Below are positions 4,554 to 28,886 of a stretch of 29,164 nucleotides of DNA, one piece after another. The stretch spans positions 1-29,164 of the IMG/VR virus record IMGVR_UViG_3300035698_006573, one strand, 5' to 3'. This stretch comes from a virus. A program made the position numbers and the translations under genes. A model generated the notes under the pieces. The model was given only the letters and a program-made list of their open reading frames with translations, had not been told where the DNA came from and made no database searches. How positions within the stretch are numbered: position 1 is the first letter of the stretch; every line of letters begins with the position of its first letter.

Positions 4554-5229
4554 TATCTTTTCTCCATCGCTTTCTTTTGTAGTCTAACTATTTCGCTCCG
4601 AGCAACATTGTAGAGCTGATTGAAAAATGCTGGTTGTTCCCACCATGAACCCTCATTTGGATACTCTTCTCGATAAGCAAATTCTATCACTATTCTATTT
4701 ATATTTCATATGAATGGCATGTCTCTTTTATCACATCTATCGTAATATTCACACCCTTCGCAGAAATACAAAACTTTATTACAATTGCTACAACTATCTC
4801 TCTCACATTTCTGACAATCAGCCTGTGCTACCTGTTCAGGTATGTTGTTTCATCTGATTGCCTTTATTAGTTTTTTTCAGCTTCATCCAACATTTGCTTG
4901 GACTCATGTTTCCTTATTTCTATACTGATATGAGAAGATACTTTAACATCTAAATCACCGAATGATTCTTCTGTAATTGGCATTATATTGCCCTTATCAT
5001 CTTCTAATGTCCATGAATCTATAGCCAATATTGCTGTTATAGCCGCATCTCTAAAACTATCATATTCGGTTACTAACTTACCATCTTCTAACTTTTGGTC
5101 TGTCTTACACCTTCTTAAAACTTCGTGAAACTCTTTTGCTGATAGGCTATGACACTCACAAATGTCCTCACCTCTATACTCTATTGTATAGTTAAAATCT
5201 GGTTGATACTTTACAAAACAATTCTTCAT
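4553..5229 (-). CDS. Tail assembly chaperone GT-type fusion, made by -1 frameshift
   Basis: The upstream 120-residue frame (5229-4870) ends GAA AAA AAC TAA. A -1 slip at the A AAA AAC heptamer (4876-4870) enters an open frame that runs to TAA at 4555-4553 and adds about 105 residues. The fusion is about 225 residues, like lambda gpGT, whose T part recruits tube subunits to the tape measure. The -1 frame needs two TGA=Trp codons (IRWNN, FIWNI). The T part carries a dense cysteine cluster (C-x2-C, then further Cys pairs, then CEGC and CDK), seven Cys in about 33 residues, which looks like a metal-binding knuckle and is unusual for T domains. It ends in TAATG coupled to the tape measure. The slip site and frame are seen directly; frameshifting in vivo is inferred from the family. 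Confidence 0.78.
4867..5229 (-). CDS. Tail assembly chaperone G-type (unshifted product)
   Basis: A 120-residue protein from ATG at 5229-5227, chosen because GAGGAAAT lies just upstream. A longer reading from 5265 starts inside the spacer hairpin region and lacks a ribosome site. It is mixed charged and helical (ECHSLSAKEFHEVLRR, DAAITAILAIDSW), as for G-type chaperones that coat the tape measure before tube assembly, and lies between the tail tube and tape-measure genes as expected. It ends in TAA directly inside the slippery site. No TGA codon is present in this frame. Confidence 0.75.
   Translation of the reverse strand: MKNCFVKYQPDFNYTIEYRGEDICECHSLSAKEFHEVLRRCKTDQKLEDGKLVTEYDSFRDAAITAILAIDSWTLEDDKGNIMPITEESFGDLDVKVSSHISIEIRKHESKQMLDEAEKN
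4870..4876 (-). promoter_or_regulatory. Programmed -1 frameshift site (A AAA AAC)
   Basis: The minus strand reads GAA AAA AAC TAA in the zero frame, so the heptamer A AAA AAC has the canonical X XXY YYZ form and is followed immediately by the zero-frame stop. The -1 frame is open from here to 4553. Tail chaperone genes of most siphoviruses use this arrangement. I see no strong downstream stem within 10 bases; the adjacent stop codon may be enough to promote slipping. Confidence 0.8.
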
Positions 5230-5253
5230 ATTTCCTCTCTTTGTTTTTGTGTT

Positions 5254-5281
5254 TTGCAGGCCCAACTTAATGAACCTGCAA
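5254..5281 (-). terminator. Hairpin between tail tube and chaperone genes
   Basis: TTGCAGG (5254-5260) pairs with CCTGCAA (5275-5281), a 7-bp stem with a 14-base loop, just after the tail-tube stop. There is no clear T run on the minus strand, so it may be a weak attenuator or an mRNA-stabilising 3' hairpin rather than a strong terminator. It would help keep tail tube mRNA in excess over downstream messages. Confidence 0.45.
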
Positions 5282-5294
5282 TTAATTTATCTTA

Positions 5295-6221
5295 CTAACT
5301 GGTTGTTATAGTTAATCCTTCAATAGAACTATCACAATCATTAAGCACTTCTACTACAGCATTTGATACAAACACACCTACATCTGGGTCAGGTAATGAA
5401 TACTCTGTATACTTACCATTCACTGCTATAGTGAATGTACCAGAAGTTGATACTAAACCTATTGTGTTATCTGATAATGATGCTGAAACCAAGTGGTCGT
5501 ACACTTCGTCGTCGTTGTCTTTATCATAATTCCAACTAAAGTTGAAAGTACCATCTATGTTTGTTAATATTTCAAGGTTCTTAGTATCACTATTTTGGTA
5601 AATTTGCTCATCACCTTGGAAACCATTAGTAAGTCCCAAATCGAAACTATTGATTGCTGTAATATTACTATCCAACATATCAGCGGTAACATTTGCGAAT
5701 AAGAATGGGTCCATATCAGGTGTACATGAACTTAATGTAAGTCCTGTTATACTACCAGATGCGGCTTCCTTAGTTAAAGTTTTACCTCTTAATGATAAAC
5801 TATATTGAACAACTTCTCCTGAATTACCAGTTATGTTCAAACTATCTGCTGTACAACCTGCTACATAATCTAATTTACTATCATCAGTATATACTCTATA
5901 AACTGTATAACTATATGCGGCTGGCTGGCTATTAACTATTGTTCTTGGTGAAGTCAAATCAAACATAGCCATGTCTAATACAACACTATGCGAAGGACTA
6001 AAGTTACCATTCATTGCAACTGTAGCAACGCTTATACCTTCTTGCGTCTCATATTTTTGTTTCTTTAATGTCCCAGTCTTTGCTGAAACATCTATTGTGC
6101 TAACTACTTTTGCGAATTCAATCGTGTCAGGCAACTCAGTAAAGGAACCACTTGCTGGCTCACCATAAGTTGTTTCTGGAGCGATTAGTACTCTGTAGTT
6201 TTTTCCAATTCTTGTACTCAT
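5295..6221 (-). CDS. Major tail tube protein
   Basis: A 308-residue protein (ATG at 6221-6219 with AAGGAG upstream). The start MSTRIGKNYRVLIAPETTYG resembles tail tube proteins of the type with a V.I..E.TYG opening. A long Ser/Thr/Asn beta-rich core follows, and the last quarter (from about residue 225, FNFSWNYDKD, then GTFTIAVNGKYTEYSL) could be a second beta-sandwich decorating the tube. It contains a single Trp, encoded TGG, and no in-frame TGA, as in the capsid gene. It precedes the chaperone pair and is followed by a hairpin, consistent with a highly expressed structural gene. Function is inferred from order and composition. Confidence 0.75.
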   Translation of the reverse strand: MSTRIGKNYRVLIAPETTYGEPASGSFTELPDTIEFAKVVSTIDVSAKTGTLKKQKYETQEGISVATVAMNGNFSPSHSVVLDMAMFDLTSPRTIVNSQPAAYSYTVYRVYTDDSKLDYVAGCTADSLNITGNSGEVVQYSLSLRGKTLTKEAASGSITGLTLSSCTPDMDPFLFANVTADMLDSNITAINSFDLGLTNGFQGDEQIYQNSDTKNLEILTNIDGTFNFSWNYDKDNDDEVYDHLVSASLSDNTIGLVSTSGTFTIAVNGKYTEYSLPDPDVGVFVSNAVVEVLNDCDSSIEGLTITTS

Positions 6222-6240
6222 TTCTTATCTCCTTTTTTTA

Positions 6241-6684
6241 CTAACACGACCTATTATCAAAATATGTGATAGTAATATTTATCCGTCTTATTGTTAAGTT
6301 AGGGTAGAATCCAGGATTGTAATAATCTTCTGTCTCTGAATAATCACCTTTCTCTACACTTTCAATTTCTGTATTTATGCAGTTTCCATCTTGTGTAAGG
6401 TCTGCTAATATAGCCTTAATAACTTCATTTGTAATTGTATTCATCGCTGATGTACGTCTATTTTTTACGTTGTGATATACATACATTGGAATGTTATATG
6501 CTACAATCTCTCTGTCGCCAGAACTACTTTCCCATATCTCATCACCGTCTCCAACCATTACTGATGGGAAGTTATGACCAATCTTTGCTACATTATCTGG
6601 ATAAGTACCTACCTTGTGTATGTTTGCAATGTCTGCAATCGTACTTATCATTGCATCTCTAATATCGTTCTGTTTTGTAGCCAT
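6241..6684 (-). CDS. Tail terminator / tail completion-like protein
   Basis: A 147-residue protein, ATG at 6684-6682, stop TAG. The layout is an N-terminal helix (DIRDAMISTIADIANIHKVG), a strand with PSVMVGDGDE, a central helix (SAMNTITNEVIKAILADL) and a final strand pair (NLTIRRINITITYF). This matches tail terminator proteins, which cap the tube and connect it to the head. It lies directly before the tail tube, the usual slot. The start is 2 bases from the end of the upstream gene, so the two are translationally coupled. Confidence 0.65.
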   Translation of the reverse strand: MATKQNDIRDAMISTIADIANIHKVGTYPDNVAKIGHNFPSVMVGDGDEIWESSSGDREIVAYNIPMYVYHNVKNRRTSAMNTITNEVIKAILADLTQDGNCINTEIESVEKGDYSETEDYYNPGFYPNLTIRRINITITYFDNRSC

Positions 6685-6685
6685 A

Positions 6686-7108
6686 TTAAATCACCTTCTT
6701 CTTATTTAATCGTCTAAACTCTCTGCCTATTAAGACTTTAAGAATCCTTTCAAACTTAGGACCAATCCCAAATCATCCTCTTATAGGTAATCTTCCTGCA
6801 CCATATTGGTGCCATATACCTTTCTTATCTGTAGATTTTATTATAGCTATATTCTTACGAGATTTAACTTTAATACTATCCAACATATCTCTATGTAGAG
6901 TTAGATTAACTTGATTTCTTTGTACGCCCTTTCTCTTTGCATACCCTTCTGAATATCTTTTGAATCTTTTGTTTTTTACATCCAATCCTGACTTGGTACG
7001 TCCAACTATTCTTACCTCTAATGCATCGCCTACCTTTTTCATAAACTTCCTACTAAACGTAAAGTTTCTTTTCAGGTTAGGTTGTTGAGTAACTTTAATC
7101 TGTATCAT
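6686..7108 (-). CDS. Head-tail joining / virion morphogenesis-like protein
   Basis: A 140-residue basic protein; a TGA at residue 112 (GWFGIG) joins the last 28 residues. A segment with GRTKSGLDVKNKRFKRYSEG followed by L.LHRDML.SI and then a C-terminal GAGRLPIRGWFGIG is the layout of the phage virion morphogenesis / HK97 gp10-like group, where the last motif is usually R.F.G.S. It lies between the connector and the tail terminator. The high Lys/Arg content suggests binding to nucleic acid or the portal ring. The family assignment is my recognition of the layout. Confidence 0.6.
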
Positions 7109-7109
7109 A

Positions 7110-7562
7110 TTACCTTATCAGTTGAATTGGTCTAACATATGGAGAATATAAATCAACCTTGCTATCAAGGTTAGTATCATAATTAATTGTTTCTAAATCT
7201 TGTTGAAACTTTAAGTCATACTTTCCCCAATATATTTTTGACTTCTGCCCATATAGAGTTTCATAATCACCACGTGATAAGTCTTCATATATCAATGCCA
7301 ATGTAAGATAATCTGATGAAACGCCCATGCATGTAGGGTTAGCAATAATGTCTAAAAGTATTTCTCCTTCAGATTCATCAACTCTAGCACCTTGTCTCTT
7401 AAGATAAAATTGTAATTGGTCTCCAAGTAATTCTTTGGCTGCGTCTATCTTACCATTCCAATTTGCATCTTCATCTGCCAATTCATTTACGTCAGACTCT
7501 CACCTTTCAATCGTATTCAGTGTTGATAATGAACTACTCGCCCATATATTTGTTGTACTCAT
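7110..7562 (-). CDS. Head-tail connector (adaptor) protein
   Basis: A 150-residue protein. The ATG start at 7562-7560 is reached only if the TGA at residue 21 (IERWES) is read as Trp. It is mostly helical (KIDAAKELLGDQLQFYLKRQG, then LLDIIANPTCMGVSSDYLTLALIYEDLSRG), similar to gp6/gp15-type adaptors that form a ring under the portal. It follows the capsid gene after a short gap holding a hairpin. TAA at 7112-7110 is separated by one base from the next ATG. Confidence 0.62.
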
Positions 7563-7581
7563 ATTTAATCTCCAAAATTAA

Positions 7582-7603
7582 GGGGTAGGGTTTAATCTAC
7601 CCC
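7582..7603 (-). terminator. Hairpin terminator after the capsid gene
   Basis: GGGGTAG (7582-7588) pairs with CTACCCC (7597-7603) around an 8-base loop. On the minus strand the stem is followed by TTAATTTT, the form of a factor-independent terminator. It lies about 20 bases downstream of the capsid stop. Partial termination here would give capsid mRNA in excess over the tail genes. Confidence 0.75.
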
Positions 7604-7621
7604 CGTTATTTAATCTGCTTA

Positions 7622-8515
7622 CTATGCAGAAGTTTGTGTTAATATTCCTACTGATGCACTTGCGTAAAGTTGGTCAGTATTGAAATAACCATTAGCTACG
7701 ATAGTAGTTAACGCACCGCTCGCATTACGTTCTGTTTCACCTACGATGAATGAACCATTATTTCCTAAATCTTTATACGCAACACCTTGCGCATTCTTAC
7801 CGAACATAAGCCCGATAGAGCCTGAAATCAATGCTGTATTTTCAGTGATTTGGTCACTCCAATAAACATTAACTCCTGCTAAAGTTCCAACAAATCCGTT
7901 GTTAGCCAAGTTTGCACCTGGGTCTGCTAAAGTTCCAACTGCACTTGTTCCAGCTTGAACTATTTCTGAACTTAAACCGTAAGGACCCCAAATTTGTTTT
8001 GGGCTAAGAACTGCGCTAAACGGTCCCATAATTCCTTCTGTATGTAACTTCTCAATAGCCTCGAACCAAACGCCCATTGTTAATGCGCCTGAACCGCTAC
8101 TAATTTGATGTACTAAACTTGAACTCATATCTGCGTAAACAGCATTGTCAAATTTTGCACTAATTGCATTTCCTAAAATGTCGCCTGTATTGCCATAGAT
8201 GTTGTCATCATTTCCCTGGATTCCAAGGTCAGTTAAATCTGCTCTCACAGAATAACGTAAAACTTCTATATCCACGGGCGATGTTGCAATATCAGTTGCG
8301 CTGGTGTCAGCACCTTCTGCTCCTGCCGCATTCGCTGTAACGTCTGAAGCAGTTATCTTAGTGTACACTGGAAAACGACCATAAATCGCTCCACCTTGTA
8401 CTGCTTTCTTGTCTATTAAAGGCCAGAAAACGTTAATTTTATTAAAGTGTATAATTGCGTCAGCTATGGCATAGCCTAAGCCTCCAGTTGCTACATTTGT
8501 ATCGGTAATTCCCAT
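7622..8515 (-). CDS. Major capsid protein (HK97-fold)
   Basis: A 297-residue protein, ATG at 8515-8513, AAGGAG upstream, stop TAG. The N-terminal part (AIADAIIHFNKINVFWPLIDK, RFPVYTKI) and the middle stretch EVLRYSVRADLTDLGIQ, followed by a long helix (ILGNAISAKFDNAVYADM), are typical of HK97-like capsid proteins, with an extended loop and then the spine helix. ALSPKQIWGP and the VYWSDQI strand are P-domain-like features. It lies after the scaffold, as expected. All four Trp codons are TGG and none are TGA, unlike most genes here. Upstream of the start a TATAAAATA stretch near 8530 could be a phage promoter. Length is normal for the family. Confidence 0.85.
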   Translation of the reverse strand: MGITDTNVATGGLGYAIADAIIHFNKINVFWPLIDKKAVQGGAIYGRFPVYTKITASDVTANAAGAEGADTSATDIATSPVDIEVLRYSVRADLTDLGIQGNDDNIYGNTGDILGNAISAKFDNAVYADMSSSLVHQISSGSGALTMGVWFEAIEKLHTEGIMGPFSAVLSPKQIWGPYGLSSEIVQAGTSAVGTLADPGANLANNGFVGTLAGVNVYWSDQITENTALISGSIGLMFGKNAQGVAYKDLGNNGSFIVGETERNASGALTTIVANGYFNTDQLYASASVGILTQTSA

Positions 8516-8565
8516 TTTTAAATCTCCTTTTATTTTATAGTCTTATAGACTGTTTATTCTTGTTT

Positions 8566-9174
8566 CTACCAATGTCCGCCATTCTCTCTCTTCCACTTCT
8601 CTGCTAATTTCCAATCTGCTGATGATAATTCAGCAGGCGTCGAATAACCAAAGTATTTGCCCTTGCCAACGGTAGGTTCGGCAGTAGGCTTTGAGCTGTT
8701 AAGTGGCTCTGTATTCGCAGGCTCTACATCGAAGTAATTTGCTTCTGTGTATATACCCATCAATTCAAAGTTCTTATCTAACTGCTCACTCGTTAATGGC
8801 GTTTCATCAGAGCCAAATGCAAACTTGTCTTTTATCTTGTTTACTCGCTCAAAGTTAGTGTCGCCTTCTTTCGCATCAAAGATTTTACTCTCTTCAGTCC
8901 ATTTGGTAACTTTCTCTCCAAGTCTGTCAGCATTCCAATCATCAAGTTTTGTTTTATAGCCTTTGTACTCGTCTAATTTAGAGTTTAGGTTGTTAAACTT
9001 TTCAGTTAATGTTCCTAACTCTGCCTCTTTAACCGCAACTGTATCTTTGAAACCTTGTCTCTCATTTCAAACTGATTTGAACTTTTTAAGACTAACGGTC
9101 TCTTCAGGTGTTTCAATAGGCTCCCCAGCCCCGCCATTTGTTGCATCAATGACTTTCTTTTCTTCGTCTTTCAT
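8566..9174 (-). CDS. Scaffolding protein
   Basis: A 202-residue acidic, highly charged protein, ATG at 9174-9172 after TAGGAG. One TGA (residue 38, KSVWNERQ) merges the fragments. The central part (about residues 38-75) is a coiled-coil-like helix rich in Glu and Lys (KEAELGTLTEKFNNLNSKLDEYK), the classical scaffold layout, and the C-terminus is a flexible Pro/Ser/Thr segment ending in a Trp/Lys-rich tail (WKLAEKWKRE) that may bind capsid. It lies directly before the capsid gene. No protease motif is visible, so cleavage of the scaffold would need another enzyme. Confidence 0.75.
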
Positions 9175-9246
9175 AATTAACTCCTATGATTTATTAAGCA
9201 GTTCTCTCTGCCATTAAAGGATAATTATTTCTTTATTTTATCACTT

Positions 9247-9426
9247 CTATATTTCTATTTTTACTGAACCAACGAACAGGTTCTCATCATCTAAATCTGT
9301 ACTATAATGATACTTACCATGTTCATCTACTACTAACGCTTTATAGCTTCCAGTTAATATCTCTTGTATCTCTTCTGAACCACTAACGAATATACCATCT
9401 TGGTTTCTCGCTAATACTATTTGCAT
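9247..9426 (-). CDS. Small hypothetical protein
   Basis: A 59-residue protein. I place the start at ATG 9426-9424, which overlaps the stop of the head morphogenesis gene (TAATG); longer readings run into that gene. It has a compact alternating strand pattern (MQIVLARNQDGIFVSG, SYKALVVDEHGKYHYS) and ends in TAG. It is not recognised. Position between head morphogenesis and scaffold genes suggests a minor head-related role. The 70 bases downstream (9175-9246) hold only the ribosome site of the scaffold gene. Confidence 0.5.
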   Translation of the reverse strand: MQIVLARNQDGIFVSGSEEIQEILTGSYKALVVDEHGKYHYSTDLDDENLFVGSVKIEI

Positions 9427-9887
9427 TATGATATTCCTTTTTCGTACTCTTCTTCTGTAATTGGTACGAAAATATGCCTGCAATTATATCTTATTCCTTC
9501 TGCGTTGAACTCATTCTTCTCTGCTTCTGTGAAATACTTTATTGTAAGACCATCTTGACATTGTGGTCTTGTCTTTGAATCATCAGGCCCTTCGTAAACA
9601 AAATGTTCTAACCCTTGGTGTCTCGCACTTTGGTCATATACCATCTGTTCGAATTGGGTCTTGAACGTGGTTATAAAAGTATCTGTATAAGTTCCAAGTC
9701 TATGGTCTAACAACTTCTCGGCTTTAGTTAATGCATGTAAGTTGCTCTCTGCTACTGACCAAGATGTTACTAAACTTCTCTTCATCGCTTCAACAGCATC
9801 ATATGCAATCGTGAATAATTCACTTCTTTCAAACTTCTGAAATGCTAATAATACTTCTAAACTTTCAGGTCCTAATTCAATATCCAT
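9426..9887 (-). CDS. Minor head / head morphogenesis protein (SPP1 gp7 / Mu F-like C-terminal domain)
   Basis: A 153-residue protein, ATG at 9887-9885. Residues 98-110 read YEGPDDSKTRPQC and residues 134-139 YNCRHIF; these two motifs (Y.G..D..TR..C and NCRH) mark the Mu F / SPP1 gp7 head morphogenesis domain, which binds the portal and enters the procapsid. The N-terminal half is helical. It is shorter than full family members, and the preceding 86-residue gene may supply the missing N-terminal part. It lies in the expected place between portal and scaffold. Confidence 0.78.
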   Translation of the reverse strand: MDIELGPESLEVLLAFQKFERSELFTIAYDAVEAMKRSLVTSWSVAESNLHALTKAEKLLDHRLGTYTDTFITTFKTQFEQMVYDQSARHQGLEHFVYEGPDDSKTRPQCQDGLTIKYFTEAEKNEFNAEGIRYNCRHIFVPITEEEYEKGIS

Positions 9888-9888
9888 A

Positions 9889-10149
9889 TTAACTCAATGC
9901 CTCTATAATTATCTCTGATTCCTTCTCAAGATAACTCTCAACTGCTTCTGTATACCCGCTTTCTATAAGCGCCTTCTGATACAACACATCTATATTTACT
10001 ATCTTATCTAAATTCTCTTTAGTTGGCTCTATGTTGCCATCTTTGTCTAAATCAAATTTAAGACTTAACATCATCACTCTCTTTAATTTATTTATTGCTA
10101 CACTGAACTCTTTCTGTGATTCAGCTATCTTATCGTCAACTATACTCAT
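9889..10149 (-). CDS. Small helical protein next to the portal
   Basis: An 86-residue protein, ATG at 10149, one base after the portal stop codon. It is all helical and charged, with a DLDKDGNIEPTKENLD stretch that looks like an EF-hand-type loop (D-x-D-x-D-G pattern), though no full EF-hand is certain. Its stop (9889) is one base from the next ATG. It may be a separate N-terminal piece of the head morphogenesis protein or an independent portal partner. No known family was recognised. Confidence 0.55.
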   Translation of the reverse strand: MSIVDDKIAESQKEFSVAINKLKRVMMLSLKFDLDKDGNIEPTKENLDKIVNIDVLYQKALIESGYTEAVESYLEKESEIIIEALS

Positions 10150-10150
10150 A

Positions 10151-11563
10151 CTACACCTCTGGAGGTGCCAATATTGTCTCTAATGTGCTTACTTGGGCAC
10201 TCGTTAATCTTTTATGTTCTTGAAACTTCTTCAACTTCTCAATGGCATCCTCTTCTGTAATATCAGGGTCTTTTTTCATTAAGATTTCAACATTACTTGT
10301 TAAGCCAGCGGCTAACAATATTGTATTAAGCCTTGCTTCTTCTTCTGGAGAACTATCAAAAACTATCTCTGCATAATTCAATATAATTTCTGTATCTTCA
10401 GGGAATGTCTTCGCTGTATTATTCAAACTCCAAGTAACCATCATTAATTCTAATAAGTCTCTAATTGGCATAATGTAATATTGTCTGTCTGATTTAACAC
10501 GCTTCAATAACGTCTCATTCGACAGCTTTAATTGATAACCTGAGTTAAGTGTCGTGTTATCTTTTTTATACGCTTGTGCTGAAAGTCCAGCCGCTTGAGC
10601 CGCATCTACTTTCTTATTTGCTATCGCAGTTTCATACTCTGATAACTTTGGAGAAGGGTTAATGTAATCTGCTGTAGGTTGTACATCACTTGTTGGGTCT
10701 GCTTTCATTGCTAACAATGACTGAGGACCCCACTCTATTGACTTTAATGTTTTGTCGTCCATGCCAACAATTACAAGGGTCGAATATGCTTGGAATGAGT
10801 ACATCATCGATAAGTTAGTCTGGTCTATATTAATCCATTCATTTGCAGGAACCAATGGGTTCTTCTTTTCGGGCCAGAAGTTGTTTATCTGTAAATCATT
10901 TGTAAATCATACTACTGGAATAACTTTATATGGGTTATCTACTATATCTTTTTCGCTTATTATCTTGCCATTCGCAATATCAACATTAACAATACTTTGC
11001 GTCTCATCTGTCCATCTAATGTATTGGTCTAATCTATGCTCTGCTTTTGAAGATGGCGTTTGCTCCACCCCTGAGATGTGAACAAACAAATCAGTTATCT
11101 TTGTTGGATTTTTAGGGTCTTGGTATGCAAAACACTTATCGCCAGTTATGATGTCTAATTCTACTTTATCATCTCTTCAAACTGGCATCACGCCAACCTT
11201 GTAAGTCAAATTAACAAAGTGGTTTACCTTATCTAATGTTGCATGAAACATGCTATCAGTTAGCATTGTTGTAAATTCATCTTCTAAATTTTCCTTATCA
11301 ATATCTACAAGCATTGGGTTTTGGAATAAAATCGATGTATCGTCAATAACTCTCTGGGTTAATGGATATGTTGACGCATATCTTGCCACCTTTGTATGTG
11401 TTGTTGGGTAAATTGTTTGTAGTAATGAGGATAAATAATAATCCTGATTGTTCTCATAGTAGTCAATGTCCTTCAATACGCTACGTCTACGCTTCAAATC
11501 TTCTTGTCATATTGAAGTCTTCTTTTGTTCAACTATTAAGTTGCTTAATGATATATTAAACAT
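10151..11563 (-). CDS. Portal protein
   Basis: A 470-residue protein from ATG 11563-11561 (TAGGAG upstream) to TAG. Three in-frame TGAs (near residues 19, 129 and 216) split it into four pieces under the standard code. The N-terminal part (TYPLTQRVIDDTSILFQNP), the central clip/wing part (PVVWFTND, PANEWINIDQTNLSMMYSFQAY) and the long stem helices with LLELMMVTWSL followed by FPEDTEIILNYAEIVF are typical of SPP1 gp6-like portals. It forms the dodecameric ring for DNA entry. It follows the large terminase subunit by 16 bases and precedes the head morphogenesis genes, the standard order. Confidence 0.85.
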
Positions 11564-11579
11564 TATTGTTATCTCCTAA

Positions 11580-12857
11580 TTATGCACCAATTACACGTCC
11601 AGGTGTTCTTACTGTGATTGGATAAAGTCTTTCAACTAAATAACCAAAACTATCTGTGATATGGACCCATGGTTTCCCTGGCATCTCTCTTTTCTTATCA
11701 ATTCTTCCGTCGTCTGTCCTTGCTGATAATCTTATATCTTTAATAAGATATGGACACCCACTCTTTAATATTCTTACTCTTCTGTGAGACAGTGCGGCAT
11801 TCACCGTGTTCAATCTATCCCTTTGAGTTGATATTTTATTACCATCTATTCTGAAATAGTATGGCGCTTCTCTTAATATCTTTATGTCTGACACTCCTAA
11901 TGGAGCATTCGTACTTCTTTTCTTTAATGAAGTCAAATCAGGGAATACAGTTATATCTCTTTTCCCGTATTTATTAACTATCACTTTCGCCATCTCTTCT
12001 GTATTACTATTAGGTAATATTATCTCTTCAAATAAGAATAAATTACCATCAATACCTATCTCGCCAACTACTGCTACCATTGGATTTACGTTAAAGTCCA
12101 TACCTATAAGTATGCTTCTTCCAATCTTGTTGTATCTGTCAATAGCAAGGCTGTCTTTTCAACTGTAATATGCAGGCATGCTGTTTATATCAACAAATCC
12201 GCCCTCAATATATTGCTCTGCTACCTGTTTATCAAACTGAGCATACAAATCATCTATATACTCCCTACCAGTAAATGGATTATCATAACTCGCCGCCTTA
12301 ATCAATTTACCAATTGGTGGCTTACCATTAATGCCCTCTATAAATAATTCATACGTATAGAGATAACCTTCTGGCGTCGTAACTATAGCACCAGTTCCAT
12401 CAGGTACCGCTCTAATACGTGCGATACACTCTCTTCAGACAAGGGTTTGGGAGTTGTAACTACTAAGAGAATCGAACTCATCTATTATGAAATCAGTTAC
12501 GGTTAAACCCTTTATAAGTCTGTAGTTCTGTGCTGTTCTAAACATAATCAACCCAGACAATCCTGGGGACTTCACTTCTATTTCAGCATTACTTAAATGC
12601 TCTGTATATTCTATTCCATAGCCGTCAAATAAAGAACGGAATAGGGGCCAAAGAATATCTTGACTCATTCTATATGTTGGACTAAGGACTAATATTTTAC
12701 CTTTGCCCTTACGTCTTTTAATTAAATTTAATACTCTTAATGGTATTGCATACGACTTGCCACTGCCGAACCCTCCCACAAGTGCTGTATAACGTGTATC
12801 ACTAACTGCGAACTCTATCTGGTGCTTTAATGCTCCAATAATTGCTCTTACGGCCAT
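11580..12857 (-). CDS. terL: Terminase large subunit
   Basis: A 425-residue protein joined across two TGA codons (residues 141 and near 225). Walker A GGFGSGKS lies at residues 28-35, with the ATPase coupling region behind it, and Walker B FIIDEFD at 123-129. The nuclease domain shows GMDFN (Asp 254), VFPD (Asp 307) and HITDSFGYL (Asp 402), the three acidic positions of the RNaseH-like terminase nuclease. It packages DNA into the procapsid and cuts the concatemer. ATG at 12857 overlaps the stop of the small subunit (TAATG). Length is normal. No intein or insertion is visible. Confidence 0.93.
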
Positions 12858-13318
12858 TACTTACTACCGTCAGGCTTCTCATCTTTATCTGGTGTATCTT
12901 TGTACTTACTCATATCAATCTCTTCAAACTTAAAATCTACAACGCCCGCTATATTTGTTACAAACTCTTTGTTATTGTATTCTTTAAGTGATAATAGGTC
13001 TTGCTTCTTGCTTTCTAATTCTGCGGCAAACTTATAGTGTTCTTTTGCAATTGCTGTTTCATATAGGTTATTTAATCTTGAAAGTGATTGGTTTAGGTAA
13101 TAATGTCGGTCTAATGCTCCTGCTGATTTCAATGCTTTGTAAGCACGTCTAATATAGATTCTGGCTTGTCTTTCTAATACGGTCCAACCCAAATCACTAT
13201 CCTTATCTGCTACAAACTGAATAATTTTCGGCGTATTTCAACCTTGTGTAATTAATTTAATAATTGTTGTTATACGCTCTTGCGTTTCATAATTTGTACA
13301 TTTAACTGTCCCGATAAT
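12857..13318 (-). CDS. terS: Terminase small subunit
   Basis: About 153 residues. An N-terminal helix-turn-helix region (ERITTIIKLITQGW followed by TPKIIQFVADKDSDLGWTVLERQARIYIRRAY) is the pattern of DNA-binding small terminase subunits that recognise the packaging site. The Trp in GW is a TGA. The open frame continues upstream to a stop near 13346 but holds no ATG, GTG or TTG at the right place. The GGGAGA ribosome site at 13327-13322 points to ATT at 13318 or ATC at 13315, so a non-standard start codon is likely; the exact base is uncertain. The C-terminal part is charged and probably contacts the large subunit. Confidence 0.78.
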
Positions 13319-19422: not shown

Positions 19423-19440
19423 TACTTTGGCTCCTTTTGT

Positions 19441-19894: not shown

Positions 19895-19918
19895 GTGTTT
19901 ATAAAAAAGGAGTGAAGT

Positions 19919-20371: not shown

Positions 20372-20929
20372 ATGAAAGAAGAATGGAAACAGATTGAAGG
20401 GTTTGAAGGTATGTACGAAATTAGCAATATTGGTAGGGTTAAGAGTTTAAGTAGGAATGTTATAAATGGAATTGGTTGCTTTAGAACAGTTAAAGAAAGG
20501 ATATTAAAGCAAAACACAAGTACTTCTGGGTATTTATATGTAAGTTTGTGTAAAGAAGGTAAAAGAAAATTACACAGAATTCATCATTTAATATGAGACA
20601 ATTTTGGTGATAAACCTAGGAATGGTAGGAAACTTCAGGTTGACCACAAAAACGAAATCAAAACTGATAACAGAATTGGCAATCTTCAGTTATTAACAAA
20701 TCGTCAAAATACTACAAAAAGCACGTTATTATTGAAAACTTCAAGCAAATATACGGGAGTTTGTTGGAACAAACAAACAAAAAAGTGGGTTGCAGTTATT
20801 GGTATTAACAGAAAACCCAAACACTTAGGTTATTTTACAGATGAACTTAAAGCATCTGAAGCATATCAGAAAGCACTTAAAGAGCATTTAGATACAAAAA
20901 TAACCCAAAAAGGTATTAGTATAATATAA
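20372..20929 (+). CDS. HNH homing endonuclease (NUMOD4-HNH-AP2), plus strand
   Basis: A 185-residue protein, ATG at 20372, stop TAA; a TGA at residue 75 joins two fragments. A NUMOD4 module (EEWKQIEGFEGMYEISNIGRV) spans residues 3-50. The HNH core IHHLIWDNFGD, LQVDHKNEI and GNLQLLTNRQN follows at about 70-115, and an AP2-like repeat (YTGVCWNKQTKKWVAVIGIN, KHLGYFTDE) at 125-165. Compared with its minus-strand paralogue (16317), the LVW Trp is again TGA but the KW Trp is TGG, which shows both codons serve the same residue. It ends in a tandem two-way terminator. Confidence 0.88.
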
Positions 20930-20932
20930 TAA

Positions 20933-21010
20933 CCCCACAGGTTCTGAAGTTATGGAGAGGTTACCTGTGGGGCTAATAATACCGTGTGAGGTTACACATC
21001 AGGTATTATT
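20933..21010. terminator. Tandem bidirectional terminator between convergent units
   Basis: The first hairpin pairs CCCCACAGGT (20933-20942) with ACCTGTGGGG (20963-20972), 10 bp, 20-base loop. The second pairs AATAATACC (20975-20983) with GGTATTATT (21002-21010), with inner GTGT/ACAC. On the plus strand the second stem is followed by TATTTATT; on the minus strand the first stem is followed by TTATTATATTAT. Each stem thus serves one direction. Both loops contain GAGGTTAC. Confidence 0.8.
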
Positions 21011-21137
21011 TATTTATTACTATATTCTTTATTACGACTTTATCTCTTAATTTACTTAAATTTATATCTTCAATAATTTCATCTAACTTATAACAAAGTT
21101 TCTCAAGGTCGCTTAAATTTTCTCTCAATGTTTGCAT
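21006..21137 (-). CDS. Small coiled-coil protein
   Basis: A 43-residue protein, ATG 21137-21135 overlapping the upstream stop (TAATG). It is one predicted amphipathic helix (QTLRENLSDLEKLCYKLDEIIEDIN) with a basic end. It is the last gene of the late minus-strand region and is tightly coupled to the membrane protein before it, so it may be its partner (for example an antiholin-type role), which is inference only. Confidence 0.5.
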   Translation of the reverse strand: MQTLRENLSDLEKLCYKLDEIIEDINLSKLRDKVVIKNIVINK

Positions 21138-21370
21138 TATTTACCATTCCTTTCTCAAAATTTAATTATTATTTCTATTTTACCACAAATTTTATTCAAT
21201 GTCTTATTAGTTTCAGCAATATCATCCTGTAAGTCTCGTATATCTTTCCTGATACCAATATGTTCATCACATGAATCATCAACTTTTTTATTTAAAACTC
21301 CATATTTGTAAACGACGGTTATAATACTAACCAATATTGTAAACCCTAATCCAATTATGTAAGGTGTCAT
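21137..21370 (-). CDS. Membrane-anchored coiled-coil protein (holin candidate)
   Basis: A 77-residue protein. One membrane helix (YIIGLGFTILVSIITVVYKYG, residues 4-24) is followed by a charged coiled coil (IRKDIRDLQDDIAETNKTLNKICGK). The last six residues (WERNGK) follow a TGA. The layout, an N-terminal membrane segment with a soluble coiled coil, is common among small phage holin-like proteins (BhlA type). No endolysin is visible in the genome. In a host without peptidoglycan a membrane-disrupting protein alone could cause lysis. It starts right after the bS21-like gene (TAA then ATG). Confidence 0.55.
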
Positions 21371-21556
21371 TTATTTTTTCTCCAACTTCCATTTTGACCG
21401 TCTTATAGACAGTTTTCTGCTTTCTCTATTAACTTCACTTTTCTTTCTGTAATATTTATGTTTTTGGAATTCTTCATAAAAGTTTTCATCTTTAAGCCGA
21501 CTTTTTCAAACGCTTAATGCTTTATGTAAATCTCCATTTCTAACTTCAATTATCAT
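21371..21556 (-). CDS. rpsU: Ribosomal protein bS21-like
   Basis: A 61-residue highly basic protein, ATG 21556-21554, stop TAA. It opens with IIEVRNGDLHKALSVWKSRL, matching the V...(N/D)...AL...K start of bS21, followed by a charged middle (FYEEFQKHKYYRKKSE) like the E...R...Y.KPS segment and a Lys/Arg-rich helix to the end. Size and charge pattern are those of bS21, which sits near the 3' end of 16S rRNA and helps start translation. Trp 17 is TGA and Trp 56 TGG. bS21 genes are known in some aquatic phages. Here it is coupled to structural genes, so it is made late. A distant homologue would be missed by eye, so some doubt stays. Confidence 0.68.
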
Positions 21557-21557
21557 A

Positions 21558-21893
21558 TTACACGTCTTCCACACGGCTCTTTAGGTTGATTTGTGATTGC
21601 TCTAATATGTACTCATTTCCAGAAGATGTATTCCAAATAAGCTCGTAAAAATAAGAACTTGGTGTTACGTCTGCTGTTTCTGATGGGTTTATATCAAAGT
21701 AATATATACCTAAACTACCTGATGCCGCCATACTGCTATTCGTGTCTAATACAGCTTGACTATCTAAATCACTTTTGTTGCTTTTTAATATCAATTTAAC
21801 GGTGTCTGACGAAATGTCAGGGCTTGTCCCATTAAATGTAATCGTTCCATAGAAGGCTTTAGTTTCACCTACATACCAATCTGATAAACTCAT
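21558..21893 (-). CDS. Baseplate/tail appendage protein, BppU N-terminal-like
   Basis: A 111-residue protein, ATG 21893, AAGGAG upstream, stop TAA directly before the bS21 start. The strand pattern (VGETKAFYGTITFNGTSPDI, then TVKLILKSNKSD, YFDINPSETADV and FYELIWNTSSG) resembles the small beta-sandwich at the N-terminus of BppU-type baseplate proteins (a short immunoglobulin-like module). Such modules link adhesins to the tail tip. Both Trp codons are TGG. Confidence 0.6.
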   Translation of the reverse strand: MSLSDWYVGETKAFYGTITFNGTSPDISSDTVKLILKSNKSDLDSQAVLDTNSSMAASGSLGIYYFDINPSETADVTPSSYFYELIWNTSSGNEYILEQSQINLKSRVEDV

Positions 21894-21906: not shown

Positions 21907-22056
21907 TTAACTACAAGTTGTTGTAGTTTCTTGTGTTATTGTATTTACTAAAACGTCTTCTGTTATTGTATGAACCAATCCATCTGTAAACTCACCTATA
22001 CAACAGGCTGGGTTACTTCAAGTTGATTGTATTGTTATCCATGTGCAATCTGCCAT
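21907..22056 (-). CDS. Small Cys/Thr-rich protein
   Basis: A 49-residue protein, ATG 22056-22054 with AAGGAG, stop TAA. It is too short to appear under standard ORF cut-offs and holds one TGA (STWSNP). Four Cys (one near the start, a CC pair, one next to the end) and a Thr-rich C-terminus are seen. It lies between two adhesin-like genes, so a minor fibre or tip component is plausible, but there is no family match. Confidence 0.5.
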
Positions 22057-22069
22057 AATTTATTTCTCC

Positions 22070-22903
22070 TTAAAGGTTTGTGTTACCTTGTATTTTTGAG
22101 TTGCCACCTATATATGCGTATGAAAGTACATCAAATGTGCCATCTACTATAAATGTAGCAATACTATAATCGCCATCTATTGTTATTGTGTTCCCTACAC
22201 CTGTTATAATAGCATTAAAGTCTGTTGTTAGATAGCGAATAATAACTACGCCATCTTTACCATTGTGTGGGTTGAAATAATCACCTCAACCACCACCACC
22301 AGCATTACCAGCACCAAGCCCATTTGTTCCATTAGTTAGTGAAGGATTACCTGGAGTACCTGCACCACCAGCATAGTATGTTGCAGTTCCTGATATAGAA
22401 CTTTGCAATCCATCGCCACCATTACCACCATATACTCTTTCATTTGGTACAAAATAATAAGGTGCCGTGCCAACTGCGCCAGCGCCACCACCGCCTCCGC
22501 CAAAACTTTGATTAAATTTTGCATTCTGAATATGAACACCGTTGCCGCCATTATTTCCTTGTGACGGGTCTGTTTCGGGAGTATTTCCAGCACCACCAGG
22601 ATAAACATCAGTCCCGCCGCCACCAGAGCCACCTGCTAATATTGCAACTTCGTCTTTACCACCGCCACCAGAACCTCCGGCAGAAGTTATTGTATCAAAA
22701 ACAGAATCTCCACCAGAATTACCAGCACCAAAAGTTGTTGTACCACCAGAGCCAATAGTTACAGAGTATGTTTGTGAATGTACGGTTAGATTATCAAAAT
22801 GACGATAACCGCCTGAGCCACCTCCACCACAACCAACTTGGTTTGTTGAGTCATATCCGCCACCGCCGCCGCCTGCTATTACTAATAATTCTACATTTCC
22901 CAT
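22070..22903 (-). CDS. Glycine-rich tail tip adhesin, copy 2
   Basis: A 277-residue protein, joined over one TGA (GGGGWGDY). The first 205 residues are about one third Gly in runs (GGGGGG, GGAGT, GGNGGDG), the pattern of polyglycine-helix adhesins such as T4-type gp38 tip proteins. The end (LTTDFNAIITGVGNTITIDG then GDYSIATFIVDGTFDV) is a beta module shared with the 27310 gene, so the two are paralogues. The poly-Gly loops between helices usually carry receptor specificity. Located next to the long collagen-like fibre, it may cap that fibre. Confidence 0.72.
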
Positions 22904-22918
22904 ATTATTTCACTCACA

Positions 22919-25900
22919 TTATGCCTCAAATGTTTCTGCTAATACATTACTTGGGTTAAATTGAACTGAACTCGTTGAATAAGCGATACCTAACATATTA
23001 AGTTGGTCACCTGAACCAGTTGTAGGTAATTGCGTCATTGAGCCAGAGTTGTATGAACCTGATGCCTTTGCTAAATATACAGCACTGCCTATATTCCAAT
23101 CCCAACTTTCATCACGTGCGTATCCACTTCTTAATACTATTGGATTGCCTTCTGCACTTGATTCAGATACAATCATTCCAAATGCTAATGAACTCACTGA
23201 AGCCGTTGCGTCTGCATCTCATAATTTTCCATCTGATTTCATATATACTATATTACCAAATACAACATCTTCTCCTGCTAATATATCACTTGTTATTAAT
23301 CCTGAATAAGTTAAATCAGATGCTAATGCCGAGTCTTCATCAAGGCTGCCAGAAGCACTGCCTCCGCTTCCTCCACCTGAAGTTCCAGATGTTCCTGAAG
23401 TACCATCTTCACCTGAAGTGCCTGATGTTCCAGTGCCACTTGTACCAGAACTACCTGATGTTCCTGCATCTCCAGTTGCTCCACTTGTGCCAGAACTACC
23501 ACTTGTTCCTGACGAACCTGAGGCACCTGTATCACCTGTATCACCTGTTGCACCACTCGTTCCAGAGCTTCCAGAAGTTCCTGCTACTCCAGATGTTCCT
23601 GAAGAACCACTTGTTCCTGCATCTCCAGATGTTCCACTTGAACCTGACGTTCCATCAGCTCCTGAAGTACCAGAAGTTCCTGAAGTTCCACTTGCTCCTG
23701 AAGTTGTAAATTCTAACGCTGTTGCACCTGAGTTAACAACAACAAATTTATCACCTTGGTCTGTAAATGCATTCGGCGTATCTGTCAATCCTAAGAATGT
23801 TGTTACTCCAGTACCACCAGCACCACCACCAGCTGATATATTAGGTATAGCACCTCTTAAATCTTCTGTAGCATATAATGACCAATCACCTGATGCATTT
23901 ACAATTGTAAATCTTGCAATTAAGAACCCAGTGCCTTGGAATGGTCTTGGTATATTATACACTGAATAATTAAATGCGTCTGACGTAGCATCTGATGGAC
24001 TGTTTTTTGAATAAGTTCCAATAGGTAAATTACACATTAAATGTGATTCTTCGCCAGTCTTATTTGCAATTCCCCATACAACTATACTAAATGATGTATT
24101 ATTAAGTGTGTCTCCTACAGCGTCGTCTGTTAATGTTAATAAATCTGTCACAGAAAGATATGGTGTTGTATTATGATTAACTATATGTGCATCGACATCA
24201 GGCATTGATTGTGAAACAAATATTTGCTCATGCATTTGATATACTATACCACCAGTTGTTTGTATATAAGCGTTTGTTGGTAATCCAGTAAGCGAACCTT
24301 CTATACCTGAATCTCATTGAGCTTCAAACTTTCTTAATTTTTCTGTTATGTGTGTTAAATGACCTTGTTTATCTGACCATCCAGCTAAATGGTCATTGAT
24401 ATTACGATTACCTAAAGCACCATCTGCCGCTGTTGCTGTTGCAGATTGTAATACTACATTAGCAATTTTAATATATTCTTCTGATGGATAACCACCAGTA
24501 TCAACGGTCAAAACAGGATTACTTATAGGAATGTATATAAAATTCTCTTGTGGTGAAGTATCTAATCCAGCAGTTAATGTTATCTTTAAGTCAGATACAT
24601 CAAGTATTTGCCTACCAGTTGAAAATCTCATAGTTAAATAATCAAATCCAGCTGGATTTGTTAAACTACCTGTAATATCTGTTCCATCACTTGTAATTCT
24701 AAAGTCAAATGATTCTCTTATTATACCATTGAAGAAGTTTGTTGTTGTATCGTCTGGGTTAGCACTTGGGTCAATGTTTATTTTACCTGTTGTTTCATTA
24801 ATTTCTAATACGGTTCCAACGAATGCTGAATAATAAGGAAATATTGGCTCTACATTTGTTAATGAGCCAGATTCTGTTCCTGAAAGATATAGTGCGTCTC
24901 CCATATTCCAATCCGATGTATCCATACCATATACTTTACCAACGTGAGTTGCAACACCTGAACCACTATCTAATACTTCGTGTGTAGCAATCATAATATT
25001 ACGACCAAAGTTAGCATCTCTATCAGCAATTGGTAATATTGGTGTTAATAATGTTCTTCCTGAAATTGGGTCAACTGCCGCACCACCAACACTTAAAATT
25101 GTACCAATTGTTATTGTATTACCTGTATTATTATAATATTCAATTTGTCCATCTCTACCAAGGTGTATTGCATGACCTAATCCATTATCAAGATATAATG
25201 AATAATCTGCTTCATCCCAACGTACTTGTGCCGTTCCTGATGCAATTGCAAAGTTTATAGTATCTAACTCATTAATATCTTCTACAGATAGTGAGCCAGA
25301 TATAACAGCAGAACCACTAATATCTAATTTTTCAGAAGGTGTTTCTGTTCCAATACCAACATTAGTTCCCATAAAGTATGTGTCGCCACTTGATGTAACT
25401 TCTAAATAACCGTCTACTATTATTCCATCTGTTCCAGATTGAGAAACTATACTATCAACTAATGTGTTTGAAGACCCTACTGGTATGTAATTGTCTGTCA
25501 AAGTTACCGTTACGCTCGTTCCTGATGTTCCTGCTGTACCGCTTGTTCCAGAAGACCCAGAACTGCCAGACGAACCACTTGTGCCTGAACTACCATCTAT
25601 TCCAGATGTTCCCGAAGTACCACTTGAACCTGATTCTCCTGAAGTACCTGAAGTACCTGAAGTACCATCAATGCCACTTGTTCCAGATGAGCCAGCGTCT
25701 CCCGTATCACCTTTAACTCCAGATGTTCCACTTGTTCCGTCTACACCGCTTGTTCCAGAAGTACCGTCAACACCCGAAGTTCCTGATGAACCACTTGTAC
25801 CAGAGCCCGAAGTTCCACTTGTGCCGTCTGTTCCACTTATACCCGATGTCCCTGATGAGCCACTTGTGCCTGAACTACCATCTGTACCTGCTACACCACT

Positions 25901-26131
25901 CGTTCCACTTGTTCCGCTTGTTCCAGAAGTATTACTACCACCAGCATTTTCGGCATAAGATGCTGTTACGGCATAGTCAGCATAACTCGCACTCTCTATA
26001 GAACCACTTACCGTTATTACAACAGGGTTTCCTAATCCATCTAATATTTCATTATTGCTTCCACTCACTTGTAGTAATCTGTAGAAACTTGAGCTAATGT
26101 GTAAGTTTGTTAAATTCTTTTCGTATGCCAT
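22919..26131 (-). CDS. Long collagen-like tail fibre
   Basis: The largest gene: 1,070 residues, two in-frame TGAs (near residues 606 and 972), ATG 26131 with AGGAG, stop TAA. Two blocks of Gly-X-Y triplets (about residues 66-207 and 810-928), mainly GTS, GSS, GAD and GVD with a GVKGDTGDAG stretch, form collagen-like triple-helix stalks without proline. Between them lies a beta-rich domain with GNVGIGT and SEKLDISGSAVIS repeats (from about residue 245), the usual fibre shaft layout, and the C-terminal region (AFGMIVSESSAEG, DWNIGSAVYLA) matches a similar segment in the middle (near residues 400-425). The protein is most likely a trimeric fibre that reaches the host receptor. Confidence 0.82.
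23350..23705 (-). repeat. Collagen-like Gly-X-Y repeat block 2
   Basis: About 120 residues of near-continuous GTS/GSS/GAS/GAD/GDT triplets in the long fibre, encoded by 9-base units of variable third bases. On the plus strand the same DNA gives a long open frame of P-x-V repeats, which is only a shadow. Confidence 0.9.
25512..25935 (-). repeat. Collagen-like Gly-X-Y repeat block 1
   Basis: About 140 residues of GTS/GSS/GVD/GVK triplets near the N-terminus of the long fibre. Codon third positions vary between units, so the block was kept by selection for protein rather than by recent slippage. The repeats could still recombine with block 2, which would change fibre length. Confidence 0.9.
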
Positions 26132-26164
26132 TTTATTTTCTCCTAAATATATTTCTTTTAATCA

Positions 26165-27298
26165 TTATATCCCATATAATGAAGTAATTTTTGTTGTTGA
26201 AACTCCGTATATACTATCAATATCACCTATTAAAGGTCCTGGTGCAGTTTCTTCTGTACCATATGTTAAGAGTTTGTCAGTAATTGCATTGTAAGTTCCA
26301 ATTCCTCAAGCAACAGAACGAACTACGCTACTTAAACGAGCCTCGCCCAAAGCACAGTCATCATAATTTACTGTCGTTGTGTCTGCACCCATACGGAACA
26401 ATTGTGTCGTGTATTCTGGATGGTCGTCAAGGTGATTTGTAAATGTGAAATCACCAGTAGGGCTTGAAGCGCCATTTTTGTAGACTTTAACGCTTGGATA
26501 ATCTGCTACAATTGTATATAAATCATTATTAGTTACTGCCGCATAAGTTGAAATTGCGTTTATGTCGCCGATATAAGATTGAACGTTAAGGTTACTATCT
26601 CTAAAATAAAATCCGAATGGTGGGTATACATTTGCCGCAAGGTTTCTGGCATAAATATTACCCCTTGTCATAGTACCCTTGTTGGGCATTAAAAGACTAA
26701 GAGTAAATGTATCTGATGATGGCACGGTTCCTAAATTAATGTAGTCATCTACACCATCTGCCTTTTGCCCGTAGCCAAAAGCATATTTTGTTTCTGCTGG
26801 CTCACCGCCGCCCTTTTTAGCGCCATCTTGGTTGTTGGCAGTACTATCGTGTATAACTGTATTTGCTGGATAATCATTCATGTGATGAACCATATCAAAA
26901 TTGCTATCCCATACAGCATTACTTACCGCATCATCTGGGTCGTCACCTACATTCGGGTTGTCATCGCTTCCAGAATCGTAATAAATATAAACCGATTCAT
27001 CTGCATCAATTGTTCAACTTGCTGTAGATGCGTGAATAAGGGCATGGCTATCTGCAACCGTACCACTATCATAATCCCAAAAATCAACTTCGCATTTTAA
27101 TTCTGTTGGATTTGAACCAGATGTTGCAATTGCAAACTTTCTTGAATTTGTAGTTAATTCTTCAAAGACTTTTGTGCTATCACCATTTGAACCAGAAAGG
27201 TGAATTGCTATTGGGAAGTGAGTTACACTTCCACCGATACCACCTGTATAATCAATATCTAATTTTATTCTTTTGCTATATGTTCCATACCAAACCAT
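26165..27298 (-). CDS. DUF2341-LamG adhesin
   Basis: A 377-residue protein, ATG 27298-27296, two TGAs (residues 95 and 331), stop TAA. The N-terminal part (residues 1-110, WYGTYSKRIKLDIDYTGG, FPIAIHLSG, ELKCEVDFWDYDSG and VYIYYDSGS) is DUF2341. It continues into AVWDSNFDMVHHMNDYP and a LamG/concanavalin A-like domain (DGVDDYINLG, TFTLSLLM, KVYKNGA, LGEARLSSVVRS), which usually binds carbohydrate. The TGA-encoded Trp at residue 95 lies at the W..ID junction of the first domain. Such a pair is found in secreted and phage receptor-binding proteins. It probably recognises a host glycan or glycolipid, in keeping with a host that lacks a wall. Confidence 0.82.
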
Positions 27299-27309
27299 TT
27301 ATATTTCTC

Positions 27310-28179
27310 CTAACCTGCTAATGTTACTGGAATTTTATACATTTTTACAACACGACCTGTTGCTGGTGCACCGTCAATAACCGTGAATGTCCCATCTATA
27401 ATAAATTTCGCTACGCTATAATCACCATCTATTGTAATAGCGTTTCCTACACCGCTTACGGTATTTGTTCCAAAATCTGTTGTTAATCAGCGAGCAATGA
27501 ATATACCAGAACCACCTGCTCCACCTTGGGCTTTAGAACCATCATATGTTCCTCCACCACCTCCGCCACCCGTGTTTGGTGTACCGCTTTCGCCAGATGT
27601 TGCATTTCCATATACTGCTCTACCACCGCCACCTAAACCGCCAGATGCGTCGTTACTTACTCCATTTTCGTTTCCGCCACCGGCACCACCACAATAATAG
27701 GTATCGGCTCCAGAAAGAGAATATTCTAATCCGTCAGCGCCATTACCGCCTAACTGACTTCCACGAACATTTCCAAATTGACCTATAGCAGAGGCTCCGC
27801 CACCACCTCCACCTCCAAGGTTAGCACCATTTCCACCAGCATATCCTTGTCCGCTTGTTGGCGACCCACCTGTTCCGCTTACGCCGCCTTCAGAGCCACC
27901 ACCGCCACCAGAACCACCATCGTGACCGTCTGTTTGAGAGTTTCCTCCACCGCCACCGCCAACTGCCGTAAGTGTGCTAAATGTGCTATCATCTCCATCG
28001 GCACCATCAGCATTAACGGTTGGATTGAGTGGAGCACCATCTCCTATTACTACAGAATAAGCTTGTGCTGTAACAGCGAAACTTGCTGAATAAATAAGGC
28101 CGCCAGAGCCACCGCCGCCGCCGTTGTCAGAACCTCCAGCTCCACCTCCAGCAACTAATAATATTGCTAAACTTGCCAT
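27310..28179 (-). CDS. Glycine-rich tail tip adhesin, copy 1
   Basis: A 289-residue protein, ATG 28179, AGGAG upstream, stop TAG; one TGA (FIARW) at residue 231. It starts with SLAILLVAGGGAGGSD, continues with many GGGGGSGG runs and ends with LTTDFGTNTVSGVGNAITID and GDYSVAKFIIDGTFTVIDG, the same C-terminal module as the 22070 gene. Polyglycine sandwich domains of this kind form receptor-binding tips of tail fibres. The two copies flank the LamG and collagen-like genes. Confidence 0.72.
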
Positions 28180-28205
28180 TTATATTCTCCTAAAACTATA
28201 TTCCA

Positions 28206-28886
28206 TTATGTTATGTTCCATTGTGTAATAATTCCATTTAATATTATTACTGCGTGGTTGTTAGCATCTCCATCATTAAAATTAAAATCTTTATCTATAC
28301 CATCTACTCCACCTGCTGATGCATGACCACCACGAATTTTAGAGCCTGATATTGTTTTGGTTGTATAAATATTATCAACATATAAGTCTCCACTTGCACT
28401 TACAGAGCCTGATATTGACACTCTCATTCCACCTGCTATTGGCCCAAATGATGGGTAACCAAATCAGAAGTTCTTTTCTGCTCCCACTGGATTATAGAAG
28501 AAAGGCGCCTTGTCATATGTTGTATCAGAATACGAGCCATATACAAACGACCCTTGTTCAAATATTGAACCTCTTAACATTGCACTTGATGAATTAATAT
28601 TAACTCACTCACCTGCAAAGTCCCAATCAGAGCCACTATCAATATATTTATCTGAAACATCATCATAACTACTACTTTTTGCTTCAATTGCTTTTGATGT
28701 AGTGAATGCTTCTGATGCTGTAAGTTCTACCTTTAATTTGTCCTCACCTGTATCACTTACAGGGTCTGAAAATAGACCTGATATGGTAGTATTCTCACTA
28801 TCATAACTTCCTGTTCCAGTTAATAACTGAGGTAGAGTATGTGCATCACTACCAGTTGATTGAACTAATAGTTTAACTAAATCCAT
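28206..28886 (-). CDS. Tail fibre-related protein
   Basis: A 226-residue protein, ATG 28886 one base after the previous stop. Two TGAs (residues 94 and 128) join three pieces. It has Ser/Thr-rich beta strands and a MRVSISGSVSASGDLYVDNI segment that resembles the SGSAVISGSLSV shaft repeat of the long fibre, so a common fibre-shaft element is likely. The end (AVIILNGIITQWNIT) looks like a small cap. There is no enzyme motif. Confidence 0.65.

Follow-up and report, generated by a model that had tools for sequence, protein, structure and literature searches.

A divergent bS21 gene near the end of the structural-gene run of a 29 kb phage that reads TGA as tryptophan

Introduction

The stretch of viral DNA analysed here, referred to as the window, comprises positions 1 to 29,164 of IMG/VR record IMGVR_UViG_3300035698_006573; on its minus strand, from an ATG at 21556 to a TAA stop at 21371, lies a 61-residue ORF that encodes the ribosomal protein bS21. 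bS21 is the ribosomal protein most often carried by phages; it is found in many aquatic phages and is thought to retune host ribosomes late in infection. A first-pass annotation of the same DNA had recognized a bS21-like protein at 21371–21556 in a recoded phage, with one tryptophan encoded as TGA, and had noted that phage bS21 occurs in some aquatic phages and has been linked to late translation. These points all hold: the gene lies at those coordinates (on the minus strand), and precedents for phage bS21 have been described (Mizuno, 2019, PMC6375957; Chen, 2022, PMC9723584), so that the window gene adds one divergent member to a known class.

In this 29 kb genome no translation gene other than bS21 was detected among the proteins that were searched. 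The complete genome, from a recoded lineage with standard-code relatives, offers a compact comparison case and raises the question of whether small phages, and phages of hosts with a non-standard code, benefit from bS21. If the role proposed below is true, ribosome remodelling would not be restricted to large phages or to standard-code hosts.

Genome organization

The two ends of the window are identical, forming a direct repeat of 127 bp (1–127 and 29038–29164). The junction is spanned by IMGVR_UViG_3300031227_000611 (loci L002 and L184), an independent contig that matches the window to base 1 and then 29164–28691 at 100% identity. Since the terminal repeat is accompanied by a junction-crossing contig, the window is a complete circular phage genome of 29,037 bp; a gene of 188 aa runs over the circular junction.

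Apart from two genes on the plus strand (Table 1), every listed gene belongs to a single minus-strand run that starts near 19.5 kb, passes the junction in descending coordinates and ends at 21.0 kb. Along this run the order is terminase, portal, head, tail tube, tape measure, fibres, bS21, two small ORFs and then a hairpin, with bS21 third from the end of the run. The hairpin lies where the minus run and the plus-strand HNH gene converge and is likely to be a shared terminator. A tape measure and a tail tube with no recognized sheath suggest a siphovirus.

Table 1. Coordinates of features in the window
Feature	Coordinates	Strand	Remarks
Packaging, head and tail genes	432..13192	-	Same run as bS21
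Tape measure	2694–4553	-	
Tail tube	5295–6221	-	
Major head	7622–8515	-	
Portal	10151–11563	-	
Terminase	11580–12857	-	
Homing-endonuclease-like genes	13474–13665, 14576–15259, 16317–16835, 18012–18689, 20372–20929		GIY-YIG/NUMOD3, NUMOD4/HNH
Glycosyl transferase family 11	17179–18012		E 2.8e-20
261-aa protein	18691–19476	-	Head of the minus run
Plus-strand exceptions	19895–20332, 20372–20929	+	
Hairpin	20925..20985	.	-22.2 kcal/mol, z -4.0; between converging gene ends
43-aa ORF	21006..21137	-	End of the minus run
77-aa gene	21137..21370	-	Directly downstream of bS21; weak phrog_7824
bS21	21371..21556	-	ATG one base after the upstream stop
111-aa gene	21558..21893	-	Immediately upstream of bS21; phrog_1084 (function unassigned); strong AAAGGAG site
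Tail-fibre genes	21907..28886	-	Upstream of bS21, same run; include 26165–27298 and 28206–28886
Glycine-rich proteins	22070–22903, 27310–28179	-	
Collagen-like fibre	22919–26131	-	1070 aa; long (GTSG)n-type repeats

The first-pass annotation had placed bS21 next to structural and lysis-type genes. The structural genes are indeed on the same run; for lysis, none of the proteins searched matched a lysis family, most of the small proteins matching nothing. The next gene encodes the 77-aa protein, in which a hydrophobic N-terminus, a putative membrane segment judged from sequence only, is followed by a charged helix-like stretch. A search for relatives of the 111-aa neighbour returned none.

Several other genes deserve mention. 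The 261-aa protein with which the minus run opens has a very weak match to sigma-70 region 2 (E 0.14) and could be a late sigma factor. Several genes resemble homing endonucleases, notable in a genome of 29 kb, and a 35% homologue of the GIY-YIG gene is found in two related phages, sited elsewhere, among head genes (L003, 4729–5346; L004, 3366–3983). The glycosyl transferase has cyanophage relatives at about 30% identity. The L184 phage is near-identical to the window phage in its head and tail proteins (98–100%) and only 51% and 71% identical in its fibre genes (L184 9319–10543 versus window 26165–28886); the fibre cassette varies among close strains.

Identity and fold of the bS21 protein

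Under code 4 the ORF translates as MIIEVRNGDLHKALSVWKSRLKDENFYEEFQKHKYYRKKSEVNRESRKLSIRRSKWKLEKK, with a single TGA, at codon 17 (Trp17); the plus strand across the same interval is interrupted by stops. The protein matches Pfam Ribosomal_S21 (PF01165) with an E value of 3.1e-6 and 27.2 bits, passing the gathering threshold of 27 narrowly; in a six-frame search of the genome the ORF scored 24.4 bits, under that cut-off, and PHROGs returned its S21 family weakly (E 0.043). Owing to the thin Pfam margin, a second test was made with a leave-one-out profile built from 34 other bS21s, the window sequence being excluded, and with 2000 shuffles of the protein's own residues as the control. The protein scored 50.4 bits and the best of the shuffles 12.9.

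An AF2 model from a 29-row alignment has a mean pLDDT of 82 and a pTM of 0.45. In a Foldseek search of the PDB with this model, the top 11 matches were all bS21 or bS21m (the organelle forms), none with E < 0.001; modest E values are expected of a short, simple helical protein, and the fold is supportive and alone not decisive. The predicted fold agrees with 13 solved bS21/bS21m chains, which realign with VIA Z scores of 5.0–6.7 over 54–61 residues. Pfam, the leave-one-out profile and the predicted fold agree: the ORF is real and encodes bS21. The first-pass annotation had proposed profile comparison as one check on its assignment and would have given the assignment up had neither profile nor fold resembled bS21; both do.

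The protein keeps the conserved Ala13, Lys18, Glu29, Tyr36, Lys38 and Ser40. It departs from the usual pattern at the KPS motif, where the profile alignment gives KKS (Pro to Lys, a change seen in two of the 34 other rows as well and hence not exclusive to it), and at Gly25, the glycine before the second helix, which is replaced by Asn; both KPS and this glycine are common in bS21 and are no strict requirement of the family. Trp17 occupies a site that is Leu, Met or Phe in other bS21s. Arg52 stands in the column where a Bacteroidetes-type phage bS21 (L083) has Tyr, and the aromatic residue that stacks on the anti-Shine–Dalgarno (anti-SD) sequence in Bacteroidetes bS21 thus appears to be absent, the column having been set via L083 in place of the F. 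johnsoniae protein.

The long branch of this protein in the tree described below (1.19), its KPS and Gly25 changes, and the fact that the gene adjoins fibre genes and not head genes would all suit a protein that works off the ribosome, for instance a small one that binds RNA or DNA, or one that is packaged in the virion. We regard such a role as very unlikely in view of the bS21 fold over residues 1–61 and of the six conserved residues that are kept.

Relatives and phylogeny

Searches with the single protein against viral contigs and a phage collection found no relative. With a three-row alignment as the query, 220 relatives were found in phage contigs; among the 80 of these that were kept, the best have 52% identity over 46 residues, and these are bS21s of marine phages. 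The best phage relatives have in common the pattern EVRNGN-EKALRV-K...YYxKPSE, and relatives from named phages include those of HTVC008M and Mosig. Genome contigs gave no confirmed bS21 relative in a first scan, and in a second one only distant cellular bS21s and a gene of phage type from a bin assigned to Parcubacteria; the few cellular-genome loci returned have 30–47% identity to the window protein. By sequence, the nearest relatives found are therefore phage bS21s. None of the related bS21 loci shares another protein or synteny with the window.

A phylogeny, which had also been proposed at the outset as a check, was computed from 52 rows and 69 columns and puts the window protein on the phage side, beside L111, with modest support (86/84). 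Its long branch and odd composition leave its exact place unsure and, since the tree is sparse in cellular rows and lacks a full-length mollicute bS21, a host origin of the gene is beyond its reach. Judging from its sequence, the L111 locus also has ClpX-, Hsp20- and ClpS-like genes. The phage-like gene in the Parcubacteria-binned contig (L173, 768–968 of PBQF01000053.1) groups with phage bS21s L121 and L130 at 99/99; the bin holds a second bS21, and the contig may be a misbinned phage contig.

A search for the exact 29-base pattern of the gene found no further copy, and the available stretches of L199 and L200, relatives of the fibre gene at 26165–27298, contain no bS21. With no second copy found in a near relative, no sign of selection is measurable.

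Genetic code and host

TGA ends none of the listed genes and accounts for 53 of the 133 in-frame tryptophan codons, TGG for the other 80. At the TGA sites of the window, aligned relatives have Trp in 77 cases, Phe in 63, Tyr in 15 and Gly in nine, which indicates that TGA encodes tryptophan across the genome. Glycine (code 25) was considered and rejected, as Trp, Phe and Tyr far outnumber Gly in the relatives and the bS21 profile scores 50.4 bits with Trp versus 47.2 with Gly. Two relatives at 75% (L003 and L004) are recoded as well and three at about 44% (L006, L007 and L009) use the standard code; UGA = Trp thus appears to have arisen inside this phage group.

No tRNA gene was detected in the window by ARAGORN or Rfam, nor in the junction contig by ARAGORN, and a phage-borne suppressor tRNA is unlikely. 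Given a complete genome with no detected tRNA, Trp at UGA is most likely supplied by the host's own code. A suppressor route in a standard-code host during infection, such as misreading of UGA by host tRNA-Trp, seems unlikely to us. It would accord with the modest share of TGA among the Trp codons, with the standard code of the ~44% relatives and with the existence of standard-code hosts of recoded phages, which two reports describe (PMC9523058; PMC10879173); the lack of a detected tRNA gene in the complete genome and the spread of the 53 TGA codons over structural genes, none of them a stop, argue against it.

If the host itself reads UGA as Trp, several lineages come into question, including Mycoplasmatales, the Patescibacteriota family JAKLIH01 and some symbionts (PMC13092985). 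The mollicute host assumed in the first-pass annotation fits UGA = Trp with no phage suppressor tRNA and is a guess, given these other lineages; the undetected lysis gene would, as a weak indication, suit a wall-less host. No portal homologue was found in 379 Patescibacteria genomes, in a search run without a positive control. The portal and tail tube have no match among named phages, and the matches of the terminase and tape measure are so distant that they give no clue to the host. A Bacteroidota host, with release of the anti-SD by the window bS21, was also considered and is held unlikely, there being no tRNA, and SD use extending to the relatives.

Translation signals and proposed role

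An SD-like site, defined as a duplex of -5 kcal/mol or better, is present at 31 of 43 starts (72%), compared with 12% of internal ATGs. AGGAG occurs at about one third of the starts and AAGGAG at fewer, so the earlier statement that nearly all late mRNAs carry AAGGAG was too strong. The SD of bS21 itself is weak (-3.3 kcal/mol) and its ATG lies one base past the upstream stop; the gene is therefore probably translated by coupling to the 111-aa gene. In two standard-code relatives with no detected bS21 (G006 and G011), SD use is 77% and 81%, with starts assigned by a simple rule, which selects the best ATG among the first few, on contigs that may be incomplete. SD richness is a trait of the lineage or host and, as these relatives are equally SD-rich, SD use is no sign of mRNA selection by bS21.

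With moderate confidence we favour the reading that the phage bS21 is made late together with the structural products, takes the place of bS21 on the host 30S subunit and shifts initiation towards the phage. We infer the timing of expression, the incorporation into ribosomes and the bias to phage mRNAs, and the steps would be as follows. bS21 would be produced alongside the other products of the minus run (head, tail and fibre), coupled to its upstream gene, and with TGA at codon 17 would be producible only in a UGA = Trp host. It would then occupy the exchangeable bS21 site on the platform of the host 30S subunit, next to the point where mRNA leaves and to the 3' terminus of 16S rRNA. Late-infection ribosomes would then carry phage bS21, and initiation would move in the phage's favour. 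The gene follows the tail-fibre genes on their strand and precedes a strong hairpin, a location that supports this reading, and precedents in other bS21 systems, described below, count for it as well. The Lys for Pro in KPS, the Asn for Gly25 and the lack of a second copy found in a near relative count against it.

The bS21 of pelagiphage HTVC008M enters E. coli 70S ribosomes, with in vitro reporter translation at ~5%, preference for phage mRNA being no part of that result (PMC6375957). That cut, and an SD use that is the same in the relatives without detected bS21, likewise count against the favoured reading and favour another possibility, which we judge rather improbable: that phage bS21 depresses host translation (shut-off), or replenishes a loosely bound subunit protein that is in short supply when new ribosomes are made, with no preference for phage mRNA. 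The gene stands at the end of the structural run, when phage proteins are needed and a general block would harm the phage, and the HTVC008M test used the ribosome of a foreign host; both points weigh against shut-off. The earlier interpretation stands in part: the bS21 identity, the recoding, the late structural position and the common SD sites are supported, and a bias of host ribosomes in favour of late phage mRNAs is a conjecture whose SD argument is lost to the standard-code relatives with no detected bS21.

Combined with the host reading, the late-bias reading yields a broader and more tentative picture, which we consider possible though somewhat doubtful as a whole: a tiny, tRNA-free phage of a native UGA = Trp bacterium would remodel the host ribosome by its own bS21, encoded at the end of the late run, and shift initiation to SD-rich mRNAs. 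Here the genome, code and gene are observed and the ribosome step is proposed.

Comparison with known bS21 systems

The window protein resembles the bS21s of HTVC008M and marine phages in family, in being of the aquatic-phage type with an EVRNGN...KALRV...YYxKPSE-like pattern, and in being phage-borne; identity to them is 26–41% over the protein. It differs in its setting, a 29 kb window in which TGA = Trp and with which they share no genes or synteny; the related bS21 genes read contain no TGA. Cultivated bS21 phages exceed 130 kb (PMC6375957).

In lake phages, bS21 is reported to be co-expressed at high levels with structural genes late in infection (PMC9723584). These freshwater Bacteroidetes phages resemble the window in having bS21 among late structural genes, and a late-stage role was proposed there. 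However, their genomes are 293–331 kb and use the standard code, whereas the window is 29 kb and recoded; their bS21 is opposite in strand to the structural genes, whereas in the window it is on the same strand; and their bS21 has an aromatic residue stacking on the anti-SD where the window protein has Arg52 at the aligned place. The strong SD use of the window is unlike that of Bacteroidetes, the hosts of those phages.

Among cellular proteins, bS21 of Mycoplasma pneumoniae (PDB 7ooc, chain T), from a bacterium with UGA = Trp, was the second of two PDB sequence matches, and a weak one (E 0.24); it has no special kinship to the window protein in the tree and does not establish a mollicute host. 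The bS21 of F. johnsoniae (Bacteroidia) occludes the anti-SD, and altered bS21 shifts the mRNA preference of its ribosomes (PMC9976891). The window protein belongs to the same family and, by family, to the same place on the 30S platform; unlike it, it appears to lack an equivalent of Tyr54 by the alignment via L083, and the phage uses SD sequences. Measured against the phages of PMC6375957 and PMC9723584, a set narrower than the whole published range of bS21 phages, it is genome size, genetic code and strand arrangement that set the window apart from the bS21 phages described.
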